This document shows positions 947 to 6,418 of a stretch of DNA of 64,000 nt, piece after piece. Position numbers and translations under genes: made by a program. A model generated the notes under the pieces. It was not told the origin of the DNA, ran no database searches, and was given only the letters and a program-made list of their open reading frames with translations. Source of the stretch: Acidobacteriota bacterium (GTDB taxonomy: Bacteria; Acidobacteriota; Terriglobia; Acidiferrales; UBA7541); NCBI GenBank assembly GCA_003154775.1, contig PMES01000026.1, positions 1 through 64,000 on the forward strand, read 5' to 3'. Within the stretch, counting starts at the first letter, position 1. Each line of letters starts with the position of its first letter.

Positions 947-1028
947 GCCCGCCACCCGTAACTTGTCCTTCTGTCCGTTCGTATTCTTCTATGGGGCGGG
1001 AATATCACCTCTTCAAGAATGACCTTAA

Positions 1029-1073
1029 ATGGGCATACATAAACGGTTATATTACGTCATTTGCCCATATAAT
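1029..1073 (+). promoter_or_regulatory. Promoter with perfect -10 box and flanking inverted repeat upstream of the STAS-TolC gene
   Basis: The AT-rich stretch before the efflux locus holds ATGGGCA at 1029-1035 and its reverse complement TGCCCAT at 1062-1068. The second arm abuts a perfect TATAAT at 1068-1073. No clear -35 box is visible at the expected distance, which fits an activated or repressor-controlled promoter. The arm-to-arm distance (33 bp) suits binding by dimers on one DNA face. The regulator is not encoded next to it. Confidence 0.5.
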
Positions 1074-1204
1074 GGCTTAATGCACCGAATTGCGGCTCGC
1101 ATTGTAAAGGTAAGTATATGTATAATAAGGATGTTACTTTAAACTGCCCACCATCCGCTTTGGCCTCTTCCTTGCTCCTTACTCTTCCCGAAGAGATAAC
1201 TGAC

Positions 1205-2887
1205 ATGCTACGAATTACCACCGAAACCAAGCGCGGCCGCCTTACTCTAAGTGTCGAGGGTCGCCTCGCCGGACCCTGGGTCGCCACTCTCGAACAGTGC
1301 TGGCGTGAACTCCTGACAGCTTCGCCGCGCCAGAAGTTCAGCATCAATCTTTGCGGTGTGAGTTTCATCGATGACGCCGGAAAGGTTCTTCTGAAGGAGA
1401 TGCACCGCCTCGGCGGCGAACTCATCGCCGAAGGCTGCCTCAACCAGGCTATCGTCAACGAGATCGTCGAGGCCGACGCAAAACACGACGTCGACTCCAC
1501 GAAAGAGTCAGACTCCCGCAAGAAGTCGCCCATCATTTTCTATAGTGTCTTTCTCAGCTTATTGCTTCTCCCCGCCGGATTGCTCGCACAAGGCAATCCC
1601 GCGCCGCTTCCGGCCAATCCACCTGGCAACACGCTGCGCCTCACTTTGGAGCAGTCTGTCGCTCTCGCTTTGAAGCAGAACCCCACCCAACAGATCGCTG
1701 TCCTGACCGCCGCGGAAAGCGTCCAGGACAAAAACATCACACGCTCCGAACTTCTGCCTCAAGCCGACATGAGGCTGGCCGACTCCGCCAATCGCGTGAA
1801 TCTTCAGTCGGAGTTTGGTGGGAAGCCGCTTATCCCGGGGTTTCAACTTCCCGGGCACATTGGGCCGTATGAGATTTTCTCTGCTGGCCCCAGCTTCGGC
1901 AGTTCTGTCATGGATCTCTCCCTCTGGAAAAAGTATCAGGCGTCGCGCAGCGCCGTCGATGCCAGCAAGGCCAACAGCCTGTCCACACGCGAGCAAGTCA
2001 TCCTGCTCGTCGTATCGCAATACATCGGCACGCTGCGCGCCGTGGCCAATGTTGAAGCTTCCAAGTCTCGCGTGGAACTGGCCCAGGCTCTCTATGATCA
2101 GGCCGCCGATTTGCAAAAAGAAGGTGTGGGCACGGGCATTGACACTCTCCGCGCGAACGTCGAGCTGCAAAACGAAAAACAGCGCCTCATTGAAGCGGAA
2201 AACGATCGCGAAGTTTCCCTTTATGGCCTCAGCAAACTCCTCAACCTCGATCCGCGCCAGAAGGTCGAGCTGGCCGATTCGCTCAGCTTCTTTGAAACTC
2301 CACAACCCGAAGTCGAAGCCAGCATTGACGCCGCCCTCGCCGATCGTCAGGAATGGAAGGCCCTTCTCGCAGAGGAAAAAGTCGTTCGTTACCAGAAGCA
2401 AGCCTCGCAATTCTCCCGCCTGCCTTCTCTGCGTTTCGATGGCGACTGGACTTATCTCGGCACCTCCGTCAACAACGGCATCCCGACATACCAGTATCAG
2501 GCCAGCGTGAATTTCCCGCTCTTCACCAGCGGCAGGATTCACGCGGAAATCGCCAAGACCAACCTCGAAGTTCAGAAACTGGAACAGCAGAAGGCCGATT
2601 TGCGCAATCAAATTGCCCTTGATGTGAAGACCTCGCTGCTAAACCTCGATTCAGCGCGTACTGAAGTACAGGTCGCCAATCTAGGTGTTGAGCTGGCAAG
2701 AGAAGAAGTCAGCCAGGCCCGCGATCGTTTCAGGGCCGGCGTGGCTAACAACATCGAAGTGATTTCCGCCCAGGATTCCCTGGCGCGCGCCAACGACAAT
2801 CAGATCTTGGCGCTCTACCGCTTCAACCAGGCTCGCGCAGACTTTGCGCGCGCGGTTGGGCAGATGGAAAAGACCTACTCGAAGTGA
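1205..2887 (+). CDS. STAS-domain / TolC-family outer-membrane efflux protein fusion
   Basis: One uninterrupted frame encodes two unlike parts. Residues 1-85 resemble a STAS domain (beta strand LTLSVEGRLAGPW, then INLCGVSFIDDAGKVLL, lacking the phosphorylatable Ser of anti-sigma antagonists). Residues about 108-128 form a hydrophobic segment ending in AQG like a signal peptide. Residues 140-555 are a TolC/OMF protein with LTLEQSVALALKQNP at the start and a repeated long-helix pattern (ARTEVQVANLGVELAREEVS). The chosen ATG begins MLRITTE, the usual start of such STAS proteins; an in-frame ATG at 1118 would add 29 residues. The adaptor gene follows 7 bp downstream, so this is the outer-membrane channel of an EmrAB-TolC-type pump. 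How the STAS part is handled during export is unknown. Confidence 0.85.
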   Translation: MLRITTETKRGRLTLSVEGRLAGPWVATLEQCWRELLTASPRQKFSINLCGVSFIDDAGKVLLKEMHRLGGELIAEGCLNQAIVNEIVEADAKHDVDSTKESDSRKKSPIIFYSVFLSLLLLPAGLLAQGNPAPLPANPPGNTLRLTLEQSVALALKQNPTQQIAVLTAAESVQDKNITRSELLPQADMRLADSANRVNLQSEFGGKPLIPGFQLPGHIGPYEIFSAGPSFGSSVMDLSLWKKYQASRSAVDASKANSLSTREQVILLVVSQYIGTLRAVANVEASKSRVELAQALYDQAADLQKEGVGTGIDTLRANVELQNEKQRLIEAENDREVSLYGLSKLLNLDPRQKVELADSLSFFETPQPEVEASIDAALADRQEWKALLAEEKVVRYQKQASQFSRLPSLRFDGDWTYLGTSVNNGIPTYQYQASVNFPLFTSGRIHAEIAKTNLEVQKLEQQKADLRNQIALDVKTSLLNLDSARTEVQVANLGVELAREEVSQARDRFRAGVANNIEVISAQDSLARANDNQILALYRFNQARADFARAVGQMEKTYSK

Positions 2888-2894
2888 GGACGCG

Positions 2895-4196
2895 ATGAGT
2901 GTTGAGATCGAAGTTGGATTGGAGAATGCGGCAAACGTCAAAGTGCCGCCTGCGGAGCCGCGCAAGACGGACCTGACGCCACAGGGTCTTCTCAGCCCGA
3001 AAGTGCGCCGCTTTTTGATCATCGGTGGTGTGGTGCTGCTTGCTGCTCTTCTGGCACTCTTCCTCTATTTCCACAATCGGGAATCCACGGACGACGCCCA
3101 GGTTGACGGCCACATCACCCCCATCGCTGCTAAAATTTCGGGCCGCATCGGCAAAGTTCTCGTGGAGGACAATCAAGCCGTGAAGGCCGGTCAGGTGCTC
3201 GCCCAGATCGAGCCGGCGGATTATCAGGCCGCCGTTGATCAGGCCAAGGGCGCGCTGGCTCTGGCGGAAGGCGAAGCGCGTTCAGCGGGCGTGGATGTCC
3301 CGCGCACAAGCGAGAATGTCGCCAGTGGCCAATCCAACGCGGATGCGCAACTCGCCGGCGCGCAGGCCGATCTGCTTCGCGCGCAAGCTTCCTACGAGCA
3401 GGCGCAAACCGCGGACCTCGCCTTTGCACAGGCAAACGTGGACCGCAGCCGCGCCAACGCGCAACTCGCCAAGTCCGATCTGGAGCGCTACACCCCTTTG
3501 ATGGAAAAGGGCGAAATCTCCAAGCAGCAATTTGACGCCGCTAAAGCCAACGCCGATGCAAGTCTTAGCGCCCTGAACGCGGATGAGCAGCGCTTCGATC
3601 AGGCCAAGCGCAACGTTGATATCTCCCGGGACCAGCTCGATGCCGCGAAGGCGCGCGTCGAACAGGCCATGGCGGGCGTCTCTTCCGCCCACGCCGATCA
3701 GCGCCGCGTGGCCATGCGCTCGGCCGACGCTCAAGCCAAGCTCGCGAAAGTGGACCAGGCTCGCGCGGCCCTCGACGCCGCTCTCCTCAATTTGAGCTAC
3801 TGCAACATCGTCGCGCCCGTCGATGGCGTCGCCACCCACAAGCAGGTCGAACCCGGACAGATCGTCCAGCCCGGCCAGGGTTTGCTCGTGGTTGTGCCAC
3901 TCCGCGACGTCTGGGTCACCGCCAACTTCAAGGAAACCCAGCTCAAGAATATGAAGCCCGGCCAAAAGGCCTATCTGAAGGTGGATACCTACGGCAAGAC
4001 CTTCACCGGGCATGTCGATTCCATCGCGGGTGCTACCGGCGCGGTGCTGAGCTTGCTCCCCCCGGAAAACGCCACGGGCAACTACGTCAAAGTTGTTCAG
4101 CGTGTCCCCGTGAAAATTGTCCTGGATCCAATCCCGCCGGAAGTGGCTGTCCTCCGGCCGGGCATGAATGTGGAAGCAACGGTAATTACCGACTAA
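2895..4196 (+). CDS. HlyD/EmrA-family membrane fusion (periplasmic adaptor) protein
   Basis: The 433-residue protein has a short cytoplasmic N-terminus, one transmembrane helix (about 39-58), then the EmrA signature STDDAQVDGHITPIAAKISG, a lipoyl-like half motif, a long Ala/Gln-rich coiled coil (about 130-310), the second lipoyl half (YCNIVAPVDGVATHKQVEPG) and a beta-barrel with VWVTANFKETQL. This is the inner-membrane adaptor that links an MFS drug exporter to TolC. The ATG at 2895 is preferred over an upstream in-frame start at 2844 that lies inside the TolC gene. The expected EmrB permease gene directly downstream is reduced to a stub, so the adaptor may be orphaned or serve a permease elsewhere. 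Confidence 0.93.
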   Translation: MSVEIEVGLENAANVKVPPAEPRKTDLTPQGLLSPKVRRFLIIGGVVLLAALLALFLYFHNRESTDDAQVDGHITPIAAKISGRIGKVLVEDNQAVKAGQVLAQIEPADYQAAVDQAKGALALAEGEARSAGVDVPRTSENVASGQSNADAQLAGAQADLLRAQASYEQAQTADLAFAQANVDRSRANAQLAKSDLERYTPLMEKGEISKQQFDAAKANADASLSALNADEQRFDQAKRNVDISRDQLDAAKARVEQAMAGVSSAHADQRRVAMRSADAQAKLAKVDQARAALDAALLNLSYCNIVAPVDGVATHKQVEPGQIVQPGQGLLVVVPLRDVWVTANFKETQLKNMKPGQKAYLKVDTYGKTFTGHVDSIAGATGAVLSLLPPENATGNYVKVVQRVPVKIVLDPIPPEVAVLRPGMNVEATVITD

Positions 4197-4220
4197 ACGC
4201 AACGGGAAGAGTCACAAGCG

Positions 4221-4343
4221 ATGCTGGGGAAAATCACATCGAAGTTGCGCATGCCGGATGGCTCGATCAACCCCTGGGTGATCGCCGTTACCGTCACCCT
4301 GGCTGCTTTCGCGAAGGTACAGGGGGGGATACCTGTGCACTGA
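4221..4343 (+). pseudogene. Truncated EmrB/DHA2-type MFS permease remnant
   Basis: Twenty-four bases after the adaptor gene, an ATG opens a 40-codon frame whose residues 17-30 (NPWVIAVTVTLAAF) match the conserved first transmembrane start of EmrB/QacA DHA2 exporters, normally about 500 residues. The frame then departs from the family (AKVQGG) and stops at TGA 4341-4343. The next gene starts 65 bp later, so the rest of the permease is missing rather than shifted in frame. Position directly after the adaptor is exactly where emrB belongs. This looks like a deletion remnant; a functional 40-residue peptide cannot be excluded. Confidence 0.65.
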
Positions 4344-4408
4344 GGCTGCGACGTCTCTGTAACTTTCTTGTGCTGAACTACTCGTAGTAACCTACATGGG
4401 GGGAGCAA

Positions 4409-5065
4409 ATGGCAACGCAAGTGATGAGTACTCCGCAATTTAGCGAACAGAAGCTGATCCGGGCCGGCCAGCGTGGCGATGCCCAGGCGATTGAGACTCT
4501 CTTTCGCCGCTACCATCGCCAACTGTTCCAGACCGCTCTTCGCGTTCTGGGCAATGCCGAGGACGCCGAAGACGCTCTGCAGGATGGTCTGCTTTCCGCT
4601 TATCGCAACCTGAAGCGCTTCGAGGGACGTTCGCAGTTTTCCACCTGGCTCACGCGCATCGTCATCAACGCCGCACTGATGAAGCGTCGCAGCGCCAAGG
4701 CTCGCCCCGCGATTTCCCTCGACGATTCGCAGCACGAGGACGAACTGCCTCTCGCCGAGCGCTTTGCCGATGACGGGCCCAATCCGGAGCAGGTCTACGC
4801 CGGCACGGAAATCCGCGAAATGATCAACGAAAATCTGGACGACCTCTCGCCACTTCTACGGACCGCCTTCCTCTTGCGCGAAGTGGAGGGCTACTCCACG
4901 GTTGAAGCGGCCAGGAAGCTTGGTGTTACAGAAAACACCCTGAAGGCGCGGCTCTGGCGCGCCCGCCATCAGCTTGCCGAGAGGCTCGGCCGGCGTCTGC
5001 GTCGCATGAAGGACGGCATGAGCGGCGGCAACGGCATGGGCGACGAAGCCTGCAGCTATTGCTGA
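4409..5065 (+). CDS. ECF-type RNA polymerase sigma factor
   Basis: The 218-residue protein has sigma region 2 (AIETLFRRYHRQLFQTALRV, then AEDALQDGLLSAYRNL and FSTWLTRIVINAALMKRR) and region 4 (SPLLRTAFLLREVEGYST, then GVTENTLKARLWRARHQL), the layout of extracytoplasmic-function sigma-70 factors. An acidic linker (residues 105-130) separates them. The tail is basic and ends in CSYC, which might bind metal or respond to redox; that is inference. A GGGGGAG ribosome site precedes the ATG. No anti-sigma gene is adjacent: upstream is the efflux locus and downstream a cytochrome peroxidase. The regulon is unknown. Confidence 0.9.
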   Translation: MATQVMSTPQFSEQKLIRAGQRGDAQAIETLFRRYHRQLFQTALRVLGNAEDAEDALQDGLLSAYRNLKRFEGRSQFSTWLTRIVINAALMKRRSAKARPAISLDDSQHEDELPLAERFADDGPNPEQVYAGTEIREMINENLDDLSPLLRTAFLLREVEGYSTVEAARKLGVTENTLKARLWRARHQLAERLGRRLRRMKDGMSGGNGMGDEACSYC

Positions 5066-5284: not shown

Positions 5285-6418
5285 ATGAAACCCACCACCA
5301 AACTCACTCTCTTTTTCTTGATGTTTCTGGGTCTCTTTCTCCTCGCCGCGTTCGCTTACCTTCCCGCCAAGGCGCAGTCCTCGGCTTCATCTTCCGCCAC
5401 CATGCCCGTTGGAAAAACCGTAGAAATCAAAGCCCCTTTGGGATTGCCGCCGGTTCCGATTCCGCCAGACAATCCGCCGACGGAAGAAACCATCGCGCTC
5501 GGCCGCCGCTTGTATTACGATCCCCTGCTTTCCGTTGACGGCACAGTTTCCTGCGCCTCCTGCCACGCCCCGCAATTCGCGTTTTCAGACAATCGCCCGT
5601 TTTCCCAGGGTGTCGGTGGCAAGCCGGGGACTCGCCACTCCCCCACGGTCATCAACTCCACCTACAACTCCCTGCAGTTCTGGGATGGCCGGGCTTCCAG
5701 CCTCGAAGAACAGGCCAAAGGACCCATGGCCAACCCCGTGGAAATGGCCCATTCCCTGGAAGGCGTTGTGCAGCGCCTGCAAGCCGATCCGAAATATCCC
5801 GAACTCTTCAAGAAGGCCTGGGGCACCGATCAGATCACCATTGACATGGTTGTGAAATCCATCGCCTCGTTCGAGCGCACCGTCATCGCTGGCGATTCTC
5901 CCTTCGACCGTTTCTACTATGGCCATGACTCGAAGGCGCTCCCTTCCGCCGCCCAGCGAGGCTTGATAATTTTCATCAGCGCCAAGAAGGGCAATTGCGC
6001 CGTTTGCCACCCCATCGGAAAAGACTACGCGCTTTTCACCGACAACAAGTTCCACAATCTGGGCATTGGCGCCGATACGCGCGGCAATCTGAATGACCTC
6101 GGCCGCTACAGCGAAACAAAGAACGATGCCGACATGGGAGCCTTCAAAACGCCCTCGCTCCGCAATCTCGCCAATCGCGGCCCCTATATGCACGACGGCA
6201 CTTTCCCCACCGTCAAGGACGCCCTCGCCCATTACATCGGCGGCGGCAACTGGAATCCTCATCTCGACAAGGAAATCCATTCGCTCGATGTCCTCACCTT
6301 CGACGAGCGCGACGATCTCCTGCAATTCCTCGACTCCCTCAACGGCAAGCTCCCCGATAACATCGGCCCGCCTCCCGATCTAGCGCCCCCCGCCAAGTCC
6401 ACACCCGCGCCAAAATAA
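5285..6418 (+). CDS. Di-haem cytochrome c peroxidase (CcpA/MauG family)
   Basis: The 377-residue protein has an N-terminal signal peptide (hydrophobic about 8-26, AKA cleavage near 30) and two c-type haem sites, CASCH at residues 90-94 and CAVCH at 238-242, with family blocks SPTVINSTYNSLQFWDGRASSL, SIASFERTVI, and FKTPSLRNLANRGPYMHDG near the second haem's ligand region. These periplasmic enzymes reduce hydrogen peroxide using electrons from small cytochromes, or act as MauG-like oxidases. The Pro-rich C-terminus looks disordered. It stands alone between the sigma factor and a repeat-filled spacer. Confidence 0.93.
   Translation: MKPTTKLTLFFLMFLGLFLLAAFAYLPAKAQSSASSSATMPVGKTVEIKAPLGLPPVPIPPDNPPTEETIALGRRLYYDPLLSVDGTVSCASCHAPQFAFSDNRPFSQGVGGKPGTRHSPTVINSTYNSLQFWDGRASSLEEQAKGPMANPVEMAHSLEGVVQRLQADPKYPELFKKAWGTDQITIDMVVKSIASFERTVIAGDSPFDRFYYGHDSKALPSAAQRGLIIFISAKKGNCAVCHPIGKDYALFTDNKFHNLGIGADTRGNLNDLGRYSETKNDADMGAFKTPSLRNLANRGPYMHDGTFPTVKDALAHYIGGGNWNPHLDKEIHSLDVLTFDERDDLLQFLDSLNGKLPDNIGPPPDLAPPAKSTPAPK

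Follow-up and report, generated by a model that had tools for sequence, protein, structure and literature searches.

A single stop-free frame of 560 residues (positions 1205-2887, plus strand) joins a STAS domain, a charged linker, an internal signal sequence and a complete TolC-family outer-membrane channel in the window, that is, the whole 64,000-nucleotide stretch of an Acidobacteriota contig analyzed here. Our reading of this arrangement, to which we give a probability of roughly 0.6, is that a single chain is transcribed from a sigma-54 promoter and cut after the internal signal, with the STAS domain acting on the circuit of the sigma-54 activator that controls the operon.

Architecture, spread and origin of the STAS-TolC fusion

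The fused gene and its surroundings comprise the following features:
1020..1035, plus strand: distal upstream palindrome TGACCTTAAATGGGCA, putative activator site, found in 15 of 16 close fused loci
1062..1077, plus strand: proximal upstream palindrome TGCCCATATAATGGCT
1161..1176, plus strand: predicted sigma-54 -24/-12 promoter TGGCCTCTTCCTTGCT, ending 28 bases before the ATG (shuffle p 0.004)
1205..1489, plus strand: STAS domain, residues 1-95 (family profiles, AF2 model, Foldseek)
1490..1525, plus strand: charged linker, residues 96-107, with a positively charged RKK-type n-region at its end
1526..1588, plus strand: internal signal sequence, residues 108-128, predicted cleavage LLA|Q, the A|Q being common to most fused family members
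1589..2887, plus strand: TolC-family outer-membrane channel, residues 129-560, plus stop (Pfam OEP, Foldseek TolC)
2895..4196, plus strand: HlyD/EmrA-type periplasmic adaptor (Pfam HlyD_3; NCBIfam EmrA/EmrK)
4409..5065, plus strand: ECF-type sigma factor gene, candidate operon member, in the place of the EmrB-type MFS of most relatives

The ATG at 1205 is the likely start of the fusion. Another ATG at 1118, which would open a longer frame, was rejected, its extension not being conserved and its position lying 5' of the predicted promoter. The TolC part matched Pfam OEP with an E value of 2e-43 and, by Foldseek, E. coli TolC with an E value of 2e-20; both the TolC fold and the OEP domains are thus present, with the signal peptide located internally (108-128) and not at the N-terminus as in outer-membrane factors. 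The full-length model (mean pLDDT 71) likewise displayed a STAS domain, a helix at residues 111-120 and a TolC fold. The first-pass annotation had described a frame open from STAS through a signal-like segment at about residues 108-128 into a complete TolC, a description upheld by the frame itself, Pfam, Foldseek and the family profiles.

Taken alone, the STAS part of the window scored 14-15 bits against the Pfam STAS model, below its cut-off of 22.6. Across the family, a hit to STAS or STAS_2 was obtained for 12-13 of 17 members (E up to 0.1, the best 1e-6), and the family profile matches TM1442 (E 4e-6) and SpoIIAA in the PDB. The AF2 model of the domain (pLDDT 84.8) retrieved SpoIIAA/RsbV by Foldseek at an E value of about 1e-5, with MlaB lower in the match list.

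The same in-frame fusion was found in 15 contigs of other assemblies, with STAS parts 60-91% identical, and each of the 14 genomes sampled from the genus has it within an open frame of 565-604 residues. Nine more divergent loci, from other genera of the family and from G265 and G097, are also fused in frame. Our detailed comparison covers 25 fused loci, the window included, 16 of which we call close fused loci; among named relatives, Candidatus Acidiferrum typicum (L033) is the nearest. The source genome is a 150-contig assembly, a circumstance that might favor an artefact of sequencing, assembly or gene calling merging two genes, but identical architecture recurs in independent assemblies at 39-91% identity across the full protein, so that this explanation is refuted and retains practically no probability. 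The first-pass annotation had proposed searching other TolC proteins for the fusion and had named a sequencing error, or homologues occurring always as two separate genes, as grounds on which it could fail; the search returned the fusions described above, and both of these outcomes are excluded. Two further loci are of note: L139:7390 carries a second, divergent STAS-TolC fusion in G440, in addition to the usual fusion of that genome, and L043, a contig titled Betaproteobacteria, holds a fusion locus of acidobacterial type, which may reflect misbinning or transfer.

Distant members of the Acidobacteriota encode STAS and TolC separately, in genes that overlap or abut. In L051 the stop of the STAS gene overlaps the start of the TolC gene, while in L049 the two genes abut; in both loci TolC has its own normal N-terminal signal ending in AQ, and the gene order is that of the fusion. 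This bears out the statement, in the first-pass annotation, that relatives have a separate STAS gene beside TolC. Given such neighbors with similar AQ signals, the fusion looks like a merger of adjacent genes. The TolC tree is compatible with one origin of the fusion, with just three separate outgroup rows, and the STAS tree, built from few alignment columns, demands at least two changes between the fused and separate states.

Promoter, activator and downstream genes

The TGG-N10-GC spacing of the predicted promoter was detected at, or no more than 5 bases from, the position it has in the window in 15 of the 16 close fused loci, the intervening letters varying. Sites scoring at least 9.5 within 100 bases appeared in 23 of 50 STAS loci and in 2.5% of random stretches, figures for which no formal P value is given since the 50 loci are related, and which rest on a score matrix that is our approximation of the consensus; in several close relatives the match is weak (score 5.9). 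Further upstream, 15 of the 16 close fused loci have the distal palindrome at -183 to -189, with the consensus TGMCCATATATGGKCA, and 15 of 16 have the proximal one at -139 to -146; palindromes of the TGMCCATATATGGKCA form lie at about -186 and -143, and in L042 the distal copy has moved upstream. Related TGCCGAWATWTCGGCA sites were found in 23 of 34 more distant loci (3.2 expected), commonly as pairs 18-19 bases apart. A genome-wide scan with the genus palindrome gave 28 matches and its reversed control 42, revealing no wide regulon.

Among 33 loci with sufficient upstream sequence, a count that leaves out the 16 close fused loci, 28 encode a GAF-GAF-AAA-Fis sigma-54 activator no more than 3 kb ahead of STAS. 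The activator was found in 20 of 21 genomes of the genus; none lies near three separate STAS loci (L053, L143 and L147). The source genome (4.6 Mb) contains just 19 strong Sigma54_activat matches. The window starts at a contig end, and the closest activator of the source genome is on C2, a contig of 5.1 kb, sharing 98% identity across 390 residues with the activator upstream of the L033 fusion. When aligned to L033, the end of C2 and the start of the window are separated by about 0.15 kb, and this synteny places C2 and its activator just left of the window. The activator might bind the upstream palindromes.

Downstream of the fusion, the adaptor gene comes next in 16 of 16 close loci, with an MFS gene after it in 14 of them. 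The best NCBIfam match of the window's adaptor is EmrA/EmrK, at 250 bits and below the cut-off of 391, and the MFS of L034 belongs to the EmrB family (TIGR00711, 404 bits). Both the window (4196-5065) and L033 lack an EmrB-type MFS after HlyD and have the ECF sigma factor gene there; EmrB homologues of the source genome are located on C20 and C108, and the MFS of G000:C20 is 60% identical to that of L034. No MlaF/MlaE-type partner was found in the fused operon, where HlyD is followed by an MFS or an ECF sigma factor gene and no ABC gene occurs. Within the wider family the genes after STAS vary (TolC-HlyD-MFS, TolC-HlyD-RND, HlyD-ABC-2, or ECF sigma, Crp and VWA), so that STAS heads RND, ABC or MFS pump operons and also some without pumps. 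The source genome itself possesses a second module, L048 (G000:C108, STAS near 5892), in the order GAF-sigma54 activator, STAS, a 222-residue frame without a Pfam match and an EmrB-family MFS. In L141 and L148 the activator and STAS are followed by an ECF sigma factor gene, which could suggest a cascade from sigma-54 to ECF; in L148 an aldo/keto reductase gene also comes after STAS.

A probable single chain, its proposed cleavage and the possible role of the STAS domain

The first-pass annotation had suggested that two proteins arise by internal initiation or by cleavage, and these two routes fared differently. The window has no in-frame ATG, GTG or TTG from residue 76 to 119, its first in-frame TTG (120) falling within the signal core, and 17 of the 25 fusions (the window and 16 of the 24 others) have no such codon between residue 87 and the core, which makes internal initiation unlikely as a general route. 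Most fusions have positive residues before the signal core and an A|Q-type cleavage site after it. We therefore favor cleavage of a single chain by signal peptidase over internal initiation, as the simplest reading of these sequences, and two working proteins probably derive from one STAS-TolC chain. Production of the pair by translation, that is, of a full-length STAS chain together with a TolC whose ordinary N-terminal signal stems from an internal start, would accord with the overlapping or abutting separate genes of relatives, and also with GTG99 in L034 and ATG97 in L037, possible internal starts with a Shine-Dalgarno-like stretch before the signal. It may apply in a few lineages such as these, but the codon counts above, including the window's TTG inside the signal core, leave it improbable as an explanation of the fusion. 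A TolC part preceded by an internal signal was likewise observed in L060:2193-6626 (minus strand), L062:9735-14162 (plus strand) and L064:2930-7360 (minus strand), frames of about 1475 residues; that of L060 comprises, according to Pfam, a complete RND transporter (ACR_tran) and then OEP/TolC with a signal-like stretch between, and the other two have the same length and similar junctions.

Under the cleavage model, the sigma-54-transcribed gene would yield one chain made of STAS, an internal signal anchor and TolC. STAS would fold in the cytoplasm while the signal enters Sec in an N-in/C-out topology, and signal peptidase I would cut at A|Q. The freed TolC would proceed to the outer membrane, with the next-encoded HlyD adaptor and an EmrB-type MFS as its presumed partners, leaving STAS behind as a membrane-anchored stub of 128 residues. 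This stub could feed back on the activator, keeping pace with the number of channels made, although both its partner and the direction of its effect are our suppositions.

Since the activator is the constant neighbor of STAS while the pump varies, a regulatory role appears preferable to a structural role in the pump, and STAS most likely acts on the regulatory circuit of the activator. The first-pass annotation, which had not noticed the sigma-54 promoter, palindromes and GAF-sigma54 activator accompanying the STAS gene, proposed that STAS senses something before export; these elements now make regulation of the operon the likelier role. A classical phosphoswitch is unlikely, because the acceptor Ser/Thr is mostly replaced by Ala: residue 58, the phospho-acceptor position of SpoIIAA-type STAS domains, is Ala in the window, as is this position in 13 of 16 close fusions, 5 of 9 other fusions and 14 of 26 separate STAS genes. 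The STAS of the fusion family is thus probably not of that type.

MlaB binds the ABC ATPase MlaF, and on this model STAS could instead be an anchored cytoplasmic adaptor that binds, gates or stabilizes the inner-membrane transporter. The presence of MlaB among the structural matches and the constancy of the adaptor, usually with the MFS, after the close fusions would fit such a function; nevertheless, the family precedes unrelated transporters (RND, ABC-2, MFS) as well as non-transport genes (ECF sigma, Crp, VWA), its common neighbor is the sigma-54 activator and the window has no MFS after the adaptor, so we regard a pump-associated STAS as unlikely. It is far less probable that STAS has been a passive N-terminal extension of TolC, devoid of function since the fusion. 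The prevalence of Ala at the acceptor position could be read in that sense, but between the window and L033 the dN/dS of STAS (0.075) is lower than that of TolC (0.132), indicating a translated domain under selection; its invariant residues include E18, G19, L21, D56 and G59, and the same family also occurs as stand-alone genes. In the same comparison, codons 93-129 (1481-1591, linker and signal) showed synonymous changes in 2 of 33 codons; a hidden element in the linker was considered (hypergeometric P 0.03) and rejected, 10% of equal windows being as low.

Regulation through the activator's circuit remains our preferred role for STAS, and a more specific version of it can be envisaged, in which each exported TolC leaves exactly one anchored STAS that restrains or releases the operon's activator. 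We put this forward as a speculative and rather doubtful refinement; if true, transcription of the operon would be set by the number of exported channels.

Relation to known systems

Each part of the locus belongs to a known family, while the combination is new; a literature search, whose coverage excluded most subscription journals, found no published description of a STAS-TolC fusion or of a STAS-sigma-54-efflux module. It is unusual for one chain to combine a regulatory-type domain of the cytoplasm with a channel of the outer membrane, and the fusion would provide a clear-cut example of a bacterial polyprotein processed at an internal signal. The recurrence across Acidobacteriota of a STAS gene that comes first after a sigma-54 promoter, with a GAF activator beside it, suggests that sigma-54 activators have a partner not described so far. 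This pattern offers a direct test of STAS function outside the phosphoswitch and has a bearing on the control of efflux pumps in uncultured soil bacteria.

With the anti-sigma-factor antagonists SpoIIAA, RsbV and TM1442 (PF01740), the domain shares its fold, a match at the level of the family profile and the character of a small cytoplasmic regulatory domain, but here the acceptor is mostly Ala, the linkage is to a sigma-54 activator and the same chain includes an exported channel. MlaB, a subunit of the lipid transporter MlaFEDB, is likewise a STAS protein linked with trans-envelope transport and a structural match, whereas the fused operon has no MlaF/MlaE-type partner and its transporter is of the MFS/HlyD/TolC type. 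The row of TolC channel, EmrA-like adaptor and, in most relatives, EmrB-family MFS resembles that of an EmrAB-TolC-type tripartite pump; in contrast, the channel is here fused behind STAS, the promoter is of the sigma-54 type and in the window no MFS follows directly. The combination of a GAF-GAF-AAA-Fis activator, a neighboring -24/-12 promoter and palindromes upstream of it recalls FhlA, NifA and NorR, although the activator's NCBIfam scores fall short of the thresholds for the FHL activator, NifA and NorR, and its target operon is headed by a STAS gene. Finally, cleavage at an internal signal splits the fbcH polyprotein of Bradyrhizobium into cytochromes b and c1, as proposed here for a single chain; there the two products are cytochromes of one complex, whereas here they would be a STAS domain in the cytoplasm and a channel in the outer membrane.
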